Made by a program: the position numbers and the translations under genes
Shown: positions 208 through 34,105 of the stretch, one piece after another
Numbering within the stretch: position 1 is the stretch's first letter
Layout: every line of letters starts with the position of its first letter
From: a virus
Virus record (IMG/VR): IMGVR_UViG_3300037502_001377
Span: 1 to 38,183 of that record
Length of the DNA: 38,183 nucleotides
Direction: 5' to 3' (one strand)
The notes under the pieces: model-generated
The model's database searches: none
Seen by the model: the letters and a program-made list of their open reading frames with translations, nothing else
Told to the model about the DNA's origin: nothing

Positions 208-304
208 CATGACCGTTGAGGATCTGGAGCGGTTCTATGCCGCCGCGTACCACGAAGGGTGGCGCGATGAGGTGGTGAGGAGGGAGCGGGATGCAACTGC
301 GTGA
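131..304 (+). CDS. Small hypothetical phage protein (57 aa)
   Basis: Starts at ATG 131, which overlaps the stop of the nuclease gene (ATGA), and ends inside the start of the helicase gene, which begins at 291. This overlap on both sides is the normal spacing of this operon, so the gene is likely real although short. The product is charged and helical-looking (begins MRTQEQIVELARKCQH), with one Cys and an FYAAAYHEGW segment. No domain is recognised. A longer reading from 65 is rejected because it overlaps the nuclease gene. Its first 77 bases are repeated at 38107-38183. Confidence 0.7.
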   Translation: MRTQEQIVELARKCQHLDQPGAHSFRMTVEDLERFYAAAYHEGWRDEVVRRERDATA

Positions 305-1874
305 CTACCAGCAGCGTGCCATCACGCAACTCTACGATTGGTTCGCTGCCGACAATGCGGGCAATCCTTGCTTGGTGCTGCCGACTGGCTCAGGCAAAAG
401 CCACATCATTGCCGCGCTGTGCAAGGACGCGCTACAGCAATGGCCCGAAACTCGGGTGCTGATGCTCAGCCACCAGAAGGAATTGATTGAGCAAGACGCG
501 CAGAAAATGAGACTCCATTGGCCGAACGCGCCAATGGGTATCTATTCTGCCAGCATTGGTCGCAAAGACTTAGGAGAACCTATCACCTTCGCCGGCATCC
601 AGTCCCTGCGCGGCAAGGCACATCTGATCGGTCACATCGATCTAGTCATCATCGACGAAAGCCATCTCGTTGGCCACCACGATACGGGCACCTACCGCAC
701 GCTGCTGAAGGAACTGGAGCAGATCAATCCCGCGATGCGTGTGGTTGGCCTGACGGCCACGCCCTACCGCCTTGGCCACGGGATGATCACCGACCCGCCG
801 GCCATCTTCTGCGACTTGATCGAGCCGGTCAGCATCGAGGAGTTGGTCTACAAGGGCCACCTGTCCGTGCTGCGAAGCAAGGTTACGCGGGAATCGTTTG
901 ACCTGTCCAAAGTCCGCAAGCGCGGTGGCGAGTACATCGAGTCGGACTTGCAGAAGGCGGTGGACAACGACGCCAAGAACTTAAGCATCGTTGACGAGAT
1001 CATCGGGTTTGCAGGCGATCGTAAGGCGTGGCTCGTGTTTTGCGCGGGCGTGGATCACGCCCAGCACGTTTCCGATGCGCTGGTGGCCCGAGGCGTGCCA
1101 GCGGAGTGCGTGACCGGCGAGACGCCAAAGGCAAAGCGCGAGCAGATCCTGGCCGACTTCAAGGCGGGCAAGCTGCGTGCTTTGACCAATGCCAACGTCC
1201 TGACGACCGGGTTTGACCATCCGGACATTGACCTGATTGCCATGCTGCGACCAACGATGTCGCCTGGACTGTACGTTCAGATGGCAGGCAGGGGGATGCG
1301 CGTAGCCCCCGGCAAGACCGACTGCTTGGTGCTGGACTTTGCCGGCGTGGTGGAGCGGCACGGACCGATCACGGCGGTGCAGCCCCCGAGCAAGGCCGGC
1401 AAGGGCGAAGGCGATGCGCCGGTCAAGGCTTGCCCCGAGTGCCATGAGCTTGTGCCCATCTCGGCCAAGGCGTGCAGCGCCTGCGGGTTCGTTTTCCCGC
1501 TACCGCCGCCCAAGAAACTGGAACTCCGCTCCGACGACATCATGGGACTGGAAGGCTCCGAGATTGAGGTGTCGGCATGGCGCTGGAGGCCGCACACCAG
1601 CAGGGCCAGCGGCAAGCTCATGCTGTCCTGCACTTACTACGCGGGCATGACTGATCCGCCCATCACCGAGTACTTGCCGGTGCTGCACGAGGGCTACGCG
1701 GGGCAAAAGGCGATGGAGCAACTCGGCAGGATTGCCGAGGCGGCTCAGGTGCAGCTAGCCCAGCATCAGACTCTGGACACGCTGGCTGCGGTGCTGTCTC
1801 GAGGCCGGCATCCACGCATGATCGAGGTCAAACGGGATGGCAAGTTTCACAGGGTGTTGAGGAGGCAATGGTGA
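291..1874 (+). CDS. RadD-like superfamily 2 DEAD/DEAH helicase with C-terminal zinc finger
   Basis: A 527-aa SF2 helicase. Visible motifs: an N-terminal Q-like RDYQQRA segment (residues 4-10), Walker A PTGSGKS (31-37), DESH Walker B (122-125), motif III-like TATPYR (155-160), the LTTGFDHP region (304-311) and motif VI QMAGRGMR (330-337). A four-cysteine zinc finger follows (C381, C384, C395, C398). This order, helicase core then zinc finger, is that of RadD/YejH, an ATPase acting in recombination intermediate processing. Its place after a Cas4-like nuclease and before a VRR-NUC nuclease fits DNA recombination or replication repair. The ATG overlaps the preceding gene by 14 bases. The exact substrate is not shown by the sequence. 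Confidence 0.9.
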   Translation: MQLRDYQQRAITQLYDWFAADNAGNPCLVLPTGSGKSHIIAALCKDALQQWPETRVLMLSHQKELIEQDAQKMRLHWPNAPMGIYSASIGRKDLGEPITFAGIQSLRGKAHLIGHIDLVIIDESHLVGHHDTGTYRTLLKELEQINPAMRVVGLTATPYRLGHGMITDPPAIFCDLIEPVSIEELVYKGHLSVLRSKVTRESFDLSKVRKRGGEYIESDLQKAVDNDAKNLSIVDEIIGFAGDRKAWLVFCAGVDHAQHVSDALVARGVPAECVTGETPKAKREQILADFKAGKLRALTNANVLTTGFDHPDIDLIAMLRPTMSPGLYVQMAGRGMRVAPGKTDCLVLDFAGVVERHGPITAVQPPSKAGKGEGDAPVKACPECHELVPISAKACSACGFVFPLPPPKKLELRSDDIMGLEGSEIEVSAWRWRPHTSRASGKLMLSCTYYAGMTDPPITEYLPVLHEGYAGQKAMEQLGRIAEAAQVQLAQHQTLDTLAAVLSRGRHPRMIEVKRDGKFHRVLRRQW

Positions 1875-20120: not shown

Positions 20121-21579
20121 TCAGCCCCAGATGCGGCAGGCCATCGGAGGACGAATCACACCGTAGCCGTACAGAACATCAATCCGGCAAGGCATCCGGT
20201 CGTTGTTGATGTCGTACTGGCGCACAATCCGCATCGAAATGCCGTTGTGAACTTGGCGCGAAGCCATGTCCACACCCTGCGGCAGCAGCAAGTCAGCAGT
20301 CGCGAAGGTGATCGCATCCTTGTGATAGACCAGGTTCTGCGGGAACTGGGTCGAGGCCGCACCCAAGAAAGTCACCACAGCGCCCGACTGCGGGAACGAG
20401 TCCACCGTCGCCAGCGCGTTGCTGGAAGTGTAGATCGCAGGGCTGATCTTCACGCCAGTATACGCACCACCAGCAGCGGTGTTGGTCTCGGTCACCACGA
20501 ACTGCTGAAGCGCACCAGTCGACTCACGGGTCTGCGGGTTGACCGCAAACACGCCAGCAATGGTGAACACATCGCCACGGTTGATGACCTGAGTGCCAGT
20601 GCCGGTGATGGCAATGGTGTCAGCGCCTTGGGTCGCAACGGTCGTGGTGACCGTGTGCGCGCCAGTCCGGGTGCCAGTGGTATGCACCTTGATCGACTGG
20701 CTCATGTTGACCTCCTCATACCCGAGGATGCCTTCGCCCATCATGCCGTTCTTGAACTGACGGCTGATAGCAGAAGTCGGGTTGAACAGGCCTTTCATGC
20801 CTTCGACCAGAGCAGCATTCGCCGCCGGGTTGACGGTCGCATAGCGCGGCGACATCACAGCGGCCGACTCGTTCAGTTTCTGTTGAGCTTGCAGCAGAAC
20901 CAGCGAGGTGCCCGGAGTGGTACCAGGCGTGCCAACCGATTGGAAGATCGAGTTGTACGCATTGGCCACATCCGCGTCGATGCTGGACGCAAGCTGCGAA
21001 ATACGCGGCTTGAGAACGCGCTCGGCGAAGTCGTCAAGTTGCATGGTCAGCTCAGCGGTCGTGAAGTTCACGCCGATGTGCTTCTGCGAAGAAACGGACA
21101 AGGTGGTGAATTGCTCGTTGTCGTCCTGCACTTGCAGGGCGGCACCGTCAGTCACCAGCGCGCGGTCCGGGAGGCGGATGCGCAGAGTGGAGCCGATCTT
21201 GGCTCCTTCAACAGCGAACGAGTCGTCGTATTGACGAGATACGTTCCGAGTGATCACGAGGTTGTTCTCTAGGCCAAATGTTCGCCAAGGTTCGCTACTC
21301 CTTGACCGCCCTTTCGGGCTGCTGCACGTCACCGTGCAGAGCAGACTATCTCTTCACCCTCTTACGAGGGGCTGTGCGCTTCCGGCCGCTTGGCCGTACT
21401 CCCTTTCGGGATAGTCGTTACACCTTCCGGTTTCCCGGCTTGGCTCGGTATTTCCACAAATTGTGGGGTCCACCGAATTCACACAGTTTTTTACTTAGGG
21501 TTACCCCTAAGGGAGACCATTAGTTAATCTCCAGAGACTTCCGCGTGATCATGTCAATAGTAAGCAGGCTATTTGCCAC
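20121..21579 (-). CDS. Major coat protein, P22 gp5 type, interrupted by a group I intron (join 21579-21527, 21273-20121)
   Basis: Exon 1 (21579-21527, 53 nt) starts at GTG, 5 nt after GAGGTG, and encodes MANSLLTIDMITRKSLE plus two bases of the next codon. Exon 2 (21273-20121, 1153 nt) completes that codon as ATC (Ile) and continues LENNLVITRNVSRQYDD, FAVEGAKIGSTLRIRLP to the end. The joined gene is 401 codons plus stop. P22-type coats classically begin 'MAN..LT..MITREALRILEN', so the intron breaks a conserved N-terminus. Without splicing, translation stops after SLEIN. The protein assembles the capsid around scaffold. Its 401 residues are slightly fewer than the 430 of P22. Confidence 0.93.
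21274..21526 (-). ncRNA. Group I self-splicing intron (253 nt, ORF-less, subgroup IA-like)
   Basis: Read on the minus strand. P1: exon end GGAGAU with intron GUCUCC (21517-21512), the terminal U.G wobble marking the 5' splice site. P2: CUUAGGG-GUAA-CCCUAAG (21511-21494). P3: CUGUGUG (21486-21480) with CGCACAG (21378-21372). P4: UCGGU/ACCGA. P5: CCACA/UGUGG with AAA in J5/4. P6a: CCGG-GAAA-CCGG. P7: GACUAUC (21416-21410) with GAUAGUC (21350-21344), preceded by AAGA. Between P7 and P3 lie two extra hairpins (P7.1/P7.2, typical of subgroup IA). P8: CCCUC-GUAA-GAGGG. P9: CUGCACG-GUGA-CGUGCAG, then GCCC-GAAA-GGGC. The last base is the required G. No endonuclease ORF lies within. Confidence 0.95.
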
Positions 21580-22994: not shown

Positions 22995-23621
22995 TCAGAT
23001 TGTGAGGGTTTGGATATGTGCTGGCAATTTGCCTTTACGGCGCATTTCGAGAATTTGTGACGGATGAACGCCAAGCGCCCGAGCTACGTCAGCTTGAATC
23101 ATCCGTTCATCTCCAACCTGATACCAAACGTTTGTGCGCTGGTTGCGGGCCTGTTCAGATGTCGAAGCCCAACGGCAGTTTTCTGGGCTGTAATCTGCGT
23201 TGACATCAATGCGGTCAAGCGTACATCCGTCTGGTCGTTCGCCCATGTCCGCAAAAAAGTTTTCAAACGACTCTCGCCACCTGTCGCACACTTTGATGCC
23301 ACGCGCGCCATAGGCATAGAAACGATTGTTGTCCTCGTTATAGCACCTGTCTTTCATGGTGCGCCACGAACGGTATGCGCCAGTTAGGTCACCTTTTGCT
23401 GCCGCACCGTGTTTGTAGTTAACCGTGCCAATGCGCGTTGCTCTAAAGCATCCGCAAGACACATTGTTACCTGTTTGAAGGTCTGCGCCGTTCACAATAA
23501 CTTCTTTGCCGCACTCACAGGCGCAAACAAATAGCGTGCGCCCCTTTGGAGGAACGATTCTGCTCTTGACCGTCAAGCGACCAAAGATGCGTCCAGTGAG
23601 ATCTATGCGTGGTTTTGTCAT
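22995..23621 (-). CDS. Free-standing HNH homing endonuclease (208 aa)
   Basis: Start ATG 23621, 2 nt after the upstream stop. The N-terminal zinc-finger-like domain has LTGRIFGRLTV, then CACECG (33-38) and SCGC (55-58). The HNH/AP2-associated core follows: YRSWRTMKDRCYN, YGARGIKVCDRW, FADMGERP, LDRIDVNADYSPENCRWAS, EQARNQR. The C-terminal part (IQADVARALGVHPSQILEM) is a helix-turn-helix that would help bind DNA. It sits between virion genes without disrupting either, as free-standing homing endonucleases do. Local GC is lower than the surroundings. It may mobilise itself, and possibly the coat-gene intron 1.5 kb away. Confidence 0.9.
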   Translation of the reverse strand: MTKPRIDLTGRIFGRLTVKSRIVPPKGRTLFVCACECGKEVIVNGADLQTGNNVSCGCFRATRIGTVNYKHGAAAKGDLTGAYRSWRTMKDRCYNEDNNRFYAYGARGIKVCDRWRESFENFFADMGERPDGCTLDRIDVNADYSPENCRWASTSEQARNQRTNVWYQVGDERMIQADVARALGVHPSQILEMRRKGKLPAHIQTLTI

Positions 23622-23623
23622 GA

Positions 23624-24817
23624 CTACACCGTAAGACTTTGGAGTTCGGCATTGCTCAGGCGGCGGGGGTAGTAAGTGACGCGGCGGAGCCAAAGATTGG
23701 TGTACGAGGTAAACGCCGTCGTAGCTCCCAAACCTAATCTATTTGCCGTTGGCAATGCGTTTGTCGTTGTGTCTAAATTTACAGCGGAGCCATTAACACT
23801 CAAAGCAAAATCGTTAATTTTTGCCCCTAGTGCCGCTTTGAAAACAGTATTTTGCGGCATTGCACTTGCAACTATTGTGCTTACGCCATCTCCAAAACCT
23901 CGGGCGTCTGTTCCATTTCTTTGGATAGATATAACATTGTTAAATGCAGAATCTTCAATGGAAGCAACACGAGTAAAAGAAGATGATGGAGAAATTGGCA
24001 CTCCCTCCGCGTACAACGTCCCTTCTGTCGCGTTGTACCAAGGGCTCAGCGTATTCACGCTCGCCACATCGGCTGCGCGGGTGACTGCGGCGGAAGTGGT
24101 GGGGATAACGGACGTGGCGAACGCACCCTGCTCCAGTTGGGGCAGGCCGATGCGAAGGGTGATGTCGATGGCGACGCCGGAAGAAAACGAAATCACTATG
24201 TCATTTGTAACGCGAGCCGCGGATGCGTTTGACAAAGTGCGGGTAGTAAAAATTCTGGTTAGCGTTGACGTAAAAATAGATTTGAAATCTGTGATTGTAG
24301 TACCCAAAGATGCGCCAGCAGCATCTCTTTCAACAACTCTGTTTTCTACCGTGCTAATGTTTGTTAGCGACCCCGCTTGAAGAGCAGCCCAAAAACTGCT
24401 TGTCCAAGTTTGTCCATTAGCTGCAACAATTTGTGTCGTTGATTCAAAACTGTAGCCAACTGAAGTTGTGCTGGTTGTGCCACTTAACTTGATGTCAATG
24501 TAAGTAATGCCGTTTGCTGTGCCTGTTCCAACAACTTGCTGAGTCAACGTACCCAACCCGCCAGCAACCACATTCCAATTCGTCGGCAGCGTCCCCGGCG
24601 TCCCTGCCGCCGCACCCTGCATGGTGTTGTTGCGGATGCTGTTGGTGCGCGACTCCTCGATCAGGAACCCCTGCGCGGCCAGCGTGGTGGGGTTGTAGTC
24701 GAAGCGAGGAACGTCGGTCGTGGCGGTCTGAAGCGTGCCAGTCGCATCAAAGTACGTCGCGCTGCTTGCCCGCGTAAACGTGATGATCTGAGAGAAGGTC
24801 TTGCTGACAAGAGGCAT
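23624..24817 (-). CDS. Fibre-like virion protein with LamG-type C-terminal domain (397 aa)
   Basis: N-terminal part: FTRASSATYFDATGTLQTA, VPRFDYNPTTLAAQGFLIEE, SRTNSIRNN, a signature of phage fibre or head-spike proteins followed by a beta sandwich. The C-terminal half has LYAEGVPISP, IDITLRIGLPQLEQGAF and a final WLRRVTYYPRRLSNAELQSL, typical of concanavalin/LamG-like carbohydrate-binding folds. It likely binds host surface sugars. Position between portal and scaffold suggests a head-attached fibre rather than a tail fibre. The middle part is notably AT-rich, suggesting exchange. Confidence 0.75.
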   Translation of the reverse strand: MPLVSKTFSQIITFTRASSATYFDATGTLQTATTDVPRFDYNPTTLAAQGFLIEESRTNSIRNNTMQGAAAGTPGTLPTNWNVVAGGLGTLTQQVVGTGTANGITYIDIKLSGTTSTTSVGYSFESTTQIVAANGQTWTSSFWAALQAGSLTNISTVENRVVERDAAGASLGTTITDFKSIFTSTLTRIFTTRTLSNASAARVTNDIVISFSSGVAIDITLRIGLPQLEQGAFATSVIPTTSAAVTRAADVASVNTLSPWYNATEGTLYAEGVPISPSSSFTRVASIEDSAFNNVISIQRNGTDARGFGDGVSTIVASAMPQNTVFKAALGAKINDFALSVNGSAVNLDTTTNALPTANRLGLGATTAFTSYTNLWLRRVTYYPRRLSNAELQSLTV

Positions 24818-24819
24818 GG

Positions 24820-25140
24820 TTAGCTCGCTTCTTGATAATATTGGTTCACAAAGTCCAAGTTCAGACTCGGCTCCCAAGGAGCGTAACCGACCCAGATGAA
24901 GTAGGCTCCCTGCGGCTCTGCAGGCATCGCCCACTCAAAGTACCGATCTGTCGTCGGAATCAAGTCAAGCGTCGGACCAGTCTCATAACTGGTGTCCATC
25001 GCAATGAACTGCAAATCCAACGTCGCGCCCAACGGGTTAAACCCACCCGTCGATGGCGTCGAAATCGATGGGCCGCTACCCGCCTCCCAGGACTCTTGAA
25101 CCCGGTTGACGTACTGCGGGCTGAAAAAGACCTCAGTCAT
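24820..25140 (-). CDS. Small virion-region hypothetical protein (106 aa)
   Basis: Acidic and aromatic (MTEVFFSPQYVNRVQESWEAG, DRYFEWAMPAEPQGAYFIWVGYAPWEPSL). It follows its neighbours by overlap (ATGA) and 2-nt spacing, so it is clearly co-translated. No domain recognised; likely a small structural or fibre-associated protein. Confidence 0.65.
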   Translation of the reverse strand: MTEVFFSPQYVNRVQESWEAGSGPSISTPSTGGFNPLGATLDLQFIAMDTSYETGPTLDLIPTTDRYFEWAMPAEPQGAYFIWVGYAPWEPSLNLDFVNQYYQEAS

Positions 25141-32073: not shown

Positions 32074-33936
32074 TTAGGGGGCATCCGATTTCGCCATCCT
32101 CATGGCGCTAGACTGTACCCCATCGATCACGATCCATCCATGTTCATGGGGACGGATGATCTCCGCCACGATGAGTGACCCGATCAATTTGTCGGTGTAA
32201 CTGGCGCTCAGATCGTTTTCGATGGTGCGCGGTTTGCGCCCATCTTGGCTCAATTGATCCTTGAGAGCGGATCGACTCAGGTAGGGGGATCCGTCGCGCA
32301 TCTCGGCCCCCCCGCTCCACCAGGCCCGCTCAAACACCTTTTGATGCACGGCTAGCTTGGAATCCTTGCGACTGGTGGCCACGGGGGGCTCTTGCGGCAT
32401 CAGAATGGCCGATGTGACCGGTTCCCCATCCTCATCCACCCATCCGGGGATGGTCACCTGTTGCAGGCTGGCGTAGATGGGCTGCGCAAGCTCCGCATCC
32501 TTGGATTTGCGTTGCACGATCTGGATGGGCTGGCCATCTTTGGCAGGGACGACGCTGATCTCAATATCGAGCGCCCCTCGCCACGCACTCGATCCCCTGG
32601 CGCGGTGCTGGGCCTCCTCCGAGACGCCGGTATGGTGGACCAGCAGGACCGAGCACTCAAACTCACGCATCAGGCCGGCGCAAGCATCGAGCATCGTTTT
32701 GGCGTCTTGGGCGCTGTTTTCGTCGCCGGCCAGGAACCGATGCAGGGTGTCCACGATGATCAGACGCGGCTTTCGGGGCAGGGTGCGTATCTGCTGAAGC
32801 GCCTTTGCGTAGCCTTCGGGGGTGTTCAAATCCACCCCGGCGCGGCTTAGCCACATGGCCAGAGATTTCTGTTTGTGATGGTACTTCCACCCTGCGATGC
32901 GCCCTCGCAGGCCGTGATGGCCTTCGCCGGCCAGATAAACAACGTCGGCGGGGCGCACTTTTTTGCCCATCCACTCGGCCATGCCGGACGCCAGGCGTAG
33001 GCACATATCCAAGACGACGAAAGTTTTCCCGCCGCCGGATGGGCCATGCACCATCATCAAGGCCGAGTCCTGTAGCCACCCCTTGATAAGCCACGAGATC
33101 GGGGCGGGAGCCTCGCTGAACGTATCGGCCGGGATGAGCCAATCGGGATCGGGGGCGAGCAAAGCCTCGGCCGCCTCATCCCCGAGTGCTGCCGATGCTG
33201 CGAGATCGGACGCGGGCTCATACCGTGCCACGGAGGCGGCAATACGGGCGACCTCGCTTGAGGGCAGGGGGATGTCGCACCGGGTTTCGTTGGCCACGCG
33301 CAGCGCCGCCAGGATCTCGGACTCACCCATGCCGTGCCGGCGCATGGCCCCCGCAAGCGCAGTCAGGCCCGCGTTGCGGTTGCCACGGATCAACTCGCCG
33401 GTAGTGGTCGGAGAGCGCCTCTCACGGGCCAGATAGGCCGCGAGCCACGCCGAGGGAACGGGTGGCGGGGCAACGCCCTCGAGGGGGTCGCTGGATGCCT
33501 CCCAAACGTATTCGCGCCCGCCGACGACGCTGGGAGAGGCGACGAAATAGCGGCCGTCGCTGAGCAGGTCCACCCCATCGGCGAGCTTGCAGGAGCGCAA
33601 CTCGGGCGTGTACAGATACAGATGATGCTCGCCCCCGCCGGCTGTCAGGGCGATGGGACCGTCAGGACCGGCACCATGCTCCGAGAGCCAGCGTGCCCAA
33701 CTGGTGTCGCCACCGTTGCGCGGATCGATGTCCGCCACCACCAACCCGCTGGCCCGTCCGGCTGCGATCCCGACGTTCGCTTGAGGCTGCGCCGCCCACC
33801 ATTGCCGGATCGTCGCGGGATCGGTGGTCGCATCGTTGACCCCGTGCGCGGTGGCGGGCACCTTGCCCCCAGGCACCAGCGGCAGGACCGGCCAGCCCCA
33901 GCTAGCGTAGGTCAGGGCAGCGTCAAGCAGCGACAT
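32074..33936 (-). CDS. Primase-polymerase (Prim-Pol) fused to RecA-like/SF4-type helicase ATPase (620 aa)
   Basis: The N-terminal Prim-Pol domain has SWGWPVLPLVPGGKVPAT, the metal-binding VVADIDPRNGG (D69, D71) and GGGEHHLYLY (H104/H105). A middle PriCT-like segment (RGNRNAGLTALAGAMRRHG) follows. The C-terminal AAA_25/RepA-type ATPase has Walker A GPSGGGKT (298-305), Walker B RLIIVDTLH (D396) and LLVHHTG. Such fusions prime and unwind phage and plasmid origins. The C-terminal ~110 residues resemble a DNA-binding tail. Start ATG 33936 is used (GTG 33945 possible), overlapping the regulator gene by 14 bases, so the two genes are co-expressed. Confidence 0.92.
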   Translation of the reverse strand: MSLLDAALTYASWGWPVLPLVPGGKVPATAHGVNDATTDPATIRQWWAAQPQANVGIAAGRASGLVVADIDPRNGGDTSWARWLSEHGAGPDGPIALTAGGGEHHLYLYTPELRSCKLADGVDLLSDGRYFVASPSVVGGREYVWEASSDPLEGVAPPPVPSAWLAAYLARERRSPTTTGELIRGNRNAGLTALAGAMRRHGMGESEILAALRVANETRCDIPLPSSEVARIAASVARYEPASDLAASAALGDEAAEALLAPDPDWLIPADTFSEAPAPISWLIKGWLQDSALMMVHGPSGGGKTFVVLDMCLRLASGMAEWMGKKVRPADVVYLAGEGHHGLRGRIAGWKYHHKQKSLAMWLSRAGVDLNTPEGYAKALQQIRTLPRKPRLIIVDTLHRFLAGDENSAQDAKTMLDACAGLMREFECSVLLVHHTGVSEEAQHRARGSSAWRGALDIEISVVPAKDGQPIQIVQRKSKDAELAQPIYASLQQVTIPGWVDEDGEPVTSAILMPQEPPVATSRKDSKLAVHQKVFERAWWSGGAEMRDGSPYLSRSALKDQLSQDGRKPRTIENDLSASYTDKLIGSLIVAEIIRPHEHGWIVIDGVQSSAMRMAKSDAP

Positions 33937-34105
33937 CTGTGCCACGGCGCAGGTACTCGCTCAGAGCGTGCATCACGCGGTACGTCGGGTTGCACGCCTT
34001 GCCATCCCGGATGTTGGCCAGAGTGTTGTGATGCACCCCCGTGGCCCGAGCCACCATCGACAGGCGCCGGTCCTGTAGCGCCCGCCGGATCTCATCTAGC
34101 GTCAT
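33923..34105 (-). CDS. Cro/C1-like helix-turn-helix regulator (60 aa)
   Basis: MTLDEIRRALQDRRLSMVARATGVHHNTLANIRDG is a helix-turn-helix with the usual small-regulator ending (PTYRVMHALSEYL). It stands at the divergence point between the leftward primase unit and the rightward early operon and likely represses one or both promoters, as Cro does. It has no partner repressor gene in view, so it does not by itself show lysogeny. Confidence 0.85.
   Translation of the reverse strand: MTLDEIRRALQDRRLSMVARATGVHHNTLANIRDGKACNPTYRVMHALSEYLRRGTDVAA

Follow-up and report, generated by a model that had tools for sequence, protein, structure and literature searches.

The stretch of DNA analysed here (the window) comprises positions 1 to 38,183 of the uncultivated virus record IMGVR_UViG_3300037502_001377. 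On its minus strand it carries a gene for a P22-type major coat protein that is split near its 5' end by an intervening sequence. The gene has the following predicted parts.

21527..21579, minus strand: exon 1, with a GTG start, 17 codons plus AU, reading VANSLLTIDMITRKSLE-I
21274..21526, minus strand: group I intron (IA2-type) of 253 nt without an endonuclease gene, from the RF00028 match and comparative boundaries
21520..21522, minus strand: in-frame UAA at intron nt 5-7, the translation stop of the unspliced message
20121..21273, minus strand: exon 2 with the stop codon, from PF11651 and phrog_283

Exon 2 matched the P22_CoatProtein profile (PF11651; E 5e-38, 131 bits with a cut-off of 24) as well as phrog_283 (E 8.5e-72, 243.6 bits), in agreement with an earlier note, made from the sequence alone, that had called this a P22-type coat gene. 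Both matches begin at profile position 20 (of 423 and 385 positions, respectively), and the 18 residues missing from them come from exon 1. Joining exon 1 (21579-21527) to exon 2 (21273-20121) gave a frame of 401 aa without internal stops, which places the intron after the second base of codon 18; the peptide across the junction of the predicted spliced coat protein reads ITRKSLEILENN. Without splicing, translation would end two codons into the intron, so that splicing would be needed to make the coat protein. The unspliced sequence also holds an open frame of 403 aa that starts at a GTG inside the intron (21332) and runs into exon 2.

The splice sites could be placed by comparison with coat genes that lack the insertion. 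Among the best-scoring 80 of at least 600 coat relatives on viral contigs, 79 were uninterrupted at the site and one (L014) carried the intron, proportions that, being those of the best-scoring loci, give no estimate of intron frequency. The uninterrupted relatives within this set read ...ITRKALEI/LENNL..., with the exon 1 residues running straight into LENNL, and the coat genes of two annotated phages, MW202483 and OR003940, likewise have no insertion there. These relatives fix both splice sites to the base. With the joined flanks open and the uninterrupted relatives matching the boundaries, the 253-nt minus-strand interval 21274-21526 proposed by the earlier note was borne out.

When the whole window was searched against Rfam at the gathering threshold, the sole match was to the group I intron model RF00028 (21322-21536, minus strand, full model; 75.1 bits, E 1.9e-17, gathering score 50), which confirms the group I assignment made earlier. 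The strand from 21535 to 21274 was predicted to fold at -108.4 kcal/mol; dinucleotide shuffles averaged -80.6 (sd 5.0), and none of the 200 folded as well (z -5.5). The fold predictor considers nested pairs, and P7 is absent from the predicted fold because its pairing makes a pseudoknot with P3. The helices of the intron were assigned as listed below; the fractions of paired cells and the doubly changed pairs refer to an alignment of distinct cores.

21512..21517, minus strand: P1 3' strand GUCUCC, pairing with exon GGAGAU (21532-21527), with the U.G at the splice site
21494..21511, minus strand: P2 hairpin with a GUAA loop; 7/7 pairs changed on both sides
21480..21486, minus strand: P3 5' strand CUGUGUG; 294/294 cells paired
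21444..21477, minus strand: P4 (21477-21472 with 21449-21444) around P5 (21466-21454); the relatives' endonuclease start codon lies in the P5 hairpin
21422..21444, minus strand: P6 (GCC/GGU) and P6a (CCGG GAAA CCGG), the position of the HNH gene in relatives
21411..21416, minus strand: P7 5' strand GACUAU, with the 3' strand AUAGUC at 21349-21344; 251/252 cells paired, nearly invariant and hence uninformative on covariation
21383..21410, minus strand: P7.1 (21410-21401) and P7.2 (21396-21383), with the AGUA link that marks IA2; P7.2 paired in 210/210 cells, with double changes in 4/5 pairs
21372..21378, minus strand: P3 3' strand CGCACAG, from the helix alignment of distinct cores
21357..21370, minus strand: P8 with a GUAA loop, from the same helix alignment
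21286..21339, minus strand: P9 (21339-21322), P9.1 (21319-21308) and P9.2 (21304-21300 with 21290-21286); P9.2 with double changes in 5/5 pairs

P1 with its U.G pair, the helices from P2 to P9.2 and the terminal G can all be read in the window intron, and they include every helix that the earlier note had described. Where that note had spoken of five or more GNRA loops, six were counted (P2 GUAA, P6a GAAA, P7.1 GAAA, P8 GUAA, P9 GUGA and P9.1 GAAA). Inspection of the window by eye for a P10 helix between the 3' exon and the guide sequence gave no convincing candidate, with no contiguous pairing beyond one G-C. Subgroup IA2 is defined, in the part of PMC3428280 available to us, by P7.1 and P7.2 hairpins that are linked by G-U-A. 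The window intron has AGUA between P7.1 and P7.2, and both hairpins are paired across the distinct cores, so that the earlier suggestion of IA-type hairpins between P7 and P3 also stood. Taken together, these sequence features identify the element as a putative group IA2 phage intron and very probably a self-excising RNA.

Two patterns were used to collect introns at the same site in other phages. The intron found in L014 is the same as that of the window, but it is longer and encloses an HNH frame. The first pattern, a word of 19 bases taken from the 3' end of the intron and containing no coat sequence, matched 17 contigs, of which 16 have the intron at the same position of the coat gene; the 17th (L099) proved to be a chance 20-base match without an intron and was excluded from all counts. 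This word is the only free test of location, and its matches, sharing 19 bases with the window intron, are near kin of it. The second pattern found 74 contigs at the junction, although the pattern includes coat codons and the CCT after the splice site and so presupposes, for all 74, both the coat location and the C that follows the junction; the terminal G of the relatives is likewise partly fixed by the search pattern. Both intron ends were visible in 69 of the 74, and the remaining five (L085, which is the same contig as L014, L213, L253, L254 and L259) were left out since their available stretches do not include both ends.

Including the window, this gave 70 introns, of which 65 are long (747-768 nt) with an intact HNH gene and five are short and lack an endonuclease gene (253 nt in the window, 248 in L207, 257 in L217, and 251 in L218 and L232, which are identical). 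RF00028 also matched the other four short loci (4/4; 64.0-72.8 bits), and none of the endonuclease-bearing loci searched at the gathering threshold (0/17 and 0/1), probably because the gene splits the model. A pattern for an endonuclease-less P6-P7 core gave 105 matches on 104 contigs, of which 0/105 lay in a coat gene by a simple test; these are accordingly introns of other genes or look-alikes. Two such matches each per virus record were seen for L162 and L163 (which are one 285,572-base contig) and for L115, and these genomes probably contain two group I introns each, in other genes.

To judge the predicted helices we compared 42 distinct cores over 13 helices with 200 shuffles that ignore relatedness. 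The paired fraction exceeded that of all 200 shuffles in nine of the 13 helices (P2, P3, P5, P7.1, P7.2, P8, P9, P9.1 and P9.2), and at least one pair was changed on both sides in 11 of them. Doubly changed cells numbered 66 in P2, 56 in P9.2, 40 in P7.2, 25 in P8 and 19 in P9.1, with one or two in P1, P6 and P7.1. In these 42 cores pairing was not above the shuffles in P1, P4, P6 and P7; P4, P6 and P7 are almost invariant, which explains this result, and P4 and P7 are neutral on covariation. P5 is poorly aligned (84.7% paired as compared with 83.2% in the shuffles), and the outermost pair of P1 is broken (C-C) in 6/42 cores. The U.G pair at the 5' splice site was present in all 42. The predicted P3-P8 core and the other helices are thus supported by compensatory changes across the aligned sequences.

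The exon partner of P1 also carries a signal. At the splice site, glutamate is encoded by GAG in the window and in all 69 other genes that bear the intron, as compared with 19/79 of the intronless genes among the best-scoring relatives. Since GAA would break a P1 pair, the retention of GAG in intron-bearing genes points to a constraint of P1 on the exon. The bias could partly reflect co-conversion of exon bases during homing, in which case it would not be independent of the homing signal discussed below. Furthermore, in 69/70 introns the frame of exon 1 meets an in-frame stop at intron nt 5-10, the exception having it at nt 35. Stops at the start of an intron are viewed, in the part of a review that we consulted (PMC3984707), as halting the ribosome so that the ribozyme can fold, and by analogy the early stop of the coat introns would have a ribosome-halting role.

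All 65 long introns contain an intact frame of 174-179 aa with a common stop codon in J6/7. The median dN/dS of this gene was 0.11 (413 pairs of 49 distinct genes, codons overlapping the ribozyme core being left out), which suggests that the endonuclease genes are under purifying selection. A Pfam search with the intron-coded protein gave no family, a PHROGs search gave HNH endonuclease (E 2.1e-5), and tblastn matches in 32 phage records, all below 60% identity, were to HNH and 'icea' proteins. In 65/65 introns the start codon of this frame is part of the P5 hairpin, on its 3' strand; the stem of the hairpin has 8 bp in L091. In L084, L086-L098, L100 and L205-L262 the HNH frame was seen to overlap the ribozyme core at both ends: its start, MKTPSQ or MKIPSQ, is coded by J5/4-P4-P6, and its end, K-V or K-A plus stop, by P6-J6/7.

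The window intron itself has no homing endonuclease gene, although 65/70 introns at the site have one. A helper endonuclease may act on its behalf in trans. The HNH gene of the window (23693-22998) was considered for this part and rejected, being unlike the intron-coded HNH of the relatives (best blastp E 4.0). This gene (22998-23693, minus strand; phrog_374, E 2.8e-62) lies between scaffold and tail genes and overlaps the frame at 23624-24934. Outside the coat region, the genes of the window are known from a profile scan, which also revealed a primase-polymerase (32077-33945, minus strand; Prim-Pol, AAA_25, PriCT_1) and a DEAD/ResIII helicase (294-1874, plus strand). Both are shared with phage DSL-LC05 and with MW202483, whose gene sets are related.

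Comparison of introns with their host genes bears on mobility. Intron cores vary down to 71% alike and are thus able to diverge. The cores were at least 98% alike in 93 pairs, and in 33 of these the coat genes were less than 85% alike, although these 33 pairs are not independent (L205 occurs in 10 and L218 in 9). The window and L091, for example, differ at 8/208 core columns, and their coat genes are 78% alike. The core was more alike than the coat gene in 1360/1378 pairs, so that part of the likeness is due to ribozyme constraint. Hence the site has intronless alleles as well as introns that are more alike than the genes around them, as is characteristic of a mobile intron. On this comparative evidence, the window intron is a stripped-down form of the apparently mobile intron found at the same site in dozens of related phages.

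We then asked how the presence of the endonuclease gene is distributed over a tree of the cores from which the P5-P6 block was left out. At least four changes in presence were required, all forced by well-supported branches, on a tree that is blind to the direction (gain or loss) and that recombination may blur. Presence was no more clustered on this tree than expected by chance (131/500 shuffles as low). Sister introns with and without the gene differed outside the block at 8/208, 0/206, 2/208 and 14/212 columns, and inside it the P5 loop and P6 were wholly different. The start-codon hairpin was kept in 0/5 endonuclease-less copies. For the P5-P6 block of the window, the best donor among the matches listed, the window aside, was a stretch of 28 bases at 93% (L218 and L232). 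That the cores are near-identical outside the block and unlike inside it suggests repeated recombination within the ribozyme rather than simple deletion. We therefore tentatively consider, as one possibility that falls somewhat short of an even chance, that the endonuclease gene enters and leaves the intron as a single block, bounded by its start codon (P5 hairpin) and its stop codon (J6/7) and overlapping the core at both ends.

The explanation that we consider highly probable is that a self-splicing IA2 intron sits after the second base of codon 18, that it spread by homing, and that the window copy lacks the endonuclease and survives by splicing. As judged from the biochemistry of group I introns, translation of exon 1 would halt at intron nt 5-7, so that ribosomes keep clear of the core and it can fold. 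The 5' site selected by P1 would then be attacked by guanosine, and the freed exon 1 would attack behind the terminal G, the joining of the exons yielding the full coat message. As judged from the comparison of loci, the intron would have arrived in the coat gene through endonuclease-driven homing between related phages, and the window copy would be a form without the endonuclease gene that persists because it splices and that would now be immobile by itself.

It is conceivable that the intron is instead kept because it is beneficial, delaying or tuning coat production via splicing, with loss of the endonuclease as a step towards this role. In favour of such a role, the coat gene is a late, high-output gene and five introns persist without the endonuclease gene. 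Yet 79 of the best-scoring 80 relatives (of at least 600) do without the intron, and in 65/70 copies the endonuclease is intact and under selection, which is the mark of a selfish element; we regard a regulatory role as unlikely. Still less probable is that the RNA no longer splices and that the coat protein is made from a downstream start, for which the GTG at 21332 and its open frame into exon 2 would serve. The product would then gain intron-coded residues and lose 18 conserved N-terminal residues, and virions would contain no MANSLLTIDMITRKSLEILENN peptide, unlike those with the spliced product. Moreover, the core pairing is intact in the window copy, and an essential gene would be expected to shed an intron that does not splice. 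An in-frame insert or intein removed at the protein level has a negligible probability, as no point in its favour was found, the frame of exon 1 stops at intron nt 5-7, which refutes it, and the insert has a ribozyme core. Least probable of all is an assembly artefact, which the uncultivated nature of the record might invite, as many independent contigs have the intron at the same base with the frame restored.

Capsid-gene introns as such are already known, and the rarity that the earlier note attributed to the coat-gene site was overstated. In the part of PMC3706429 that we consulted, the capsid-gene intron of mycobacteriophage LittleE is demonstrated by RT-PCR and N-terminal protein sequencing, and one in lactococcal phage Tuc2009 is cited. 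Like the window, LittleE (Cluster J) has its intron in the major capsid gene, with a U at the end of the 5' exon and a G at the end of the intron; like the relatives of the window intron, it carries an endonuclease frame and has intronless relatives. A related intron without endonuclease is found in tail genes (BAKA, Optimus), which resembles the endonuclease-less form of the window. LittleE differs in that it is a mycobacterial siphovirus with an unrelated capsid site, an intron of ∼820 nt and a LAGLIDADG-like frame on the other strand, and in that its splicing was demonstrated whereas that of the window is read from sequence (PMC3706429).

IA2 introns with HNH endonucleases are also known in phages, according to the part of PMC3428280 available. 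One known HNH-bearing intron of another gene shares with the coat introns the GUA-joined P7.1/P7.2, an HNH frame over P6 and a stop at the intron start. It differs in lacking P2, and its HNH frame starts in P6a and spans P7, whereas the frame of the coat-intron relatives runs from the P5 hairpin to J6/7. Parts of the core matched 285 phage records, ∼70-80% alike among the matches listed, and 0/285 covered 80% of the intron. Those listed include a DnaB-like helicase gene region (Klebsiella phage Roth32) and a DNA polymerase (Xanthomonas phage MK21), thus differing from the window intron in lying in other genes. In introns of the T4 td type, as described in the part of PMC2988022 that we consulted, RNA structure hides the ribosome binding site of the endonuclease, and limiting ribosomes on the core protects splicing. 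In the coat-intron relatives the P5 stem contains the start codon itself, and the window intron lacks an endonuclease gene; the P5 arrangement looks like the T4 hiding strategy at another place.

Among the titles and abstracts covered by our literature search, none named an intron of the P22-type coat gene. New here are the P22-type coat site, its HNH-bearing relatives and the repeated switching of the endonuclease suggested by the core tree. A practical consequence concerns annotation, since in such phages a wrong start is easily assigned to the coat gene, which so loses its first 18 residues. Beyond this, intronless, endonuclease-bearing and endonuclease-less alleles coexist in one phage group, and with these three allele types at one site the cycle of gain and loss of a homing intron becomes testable at a single essential and highly expressed gene.
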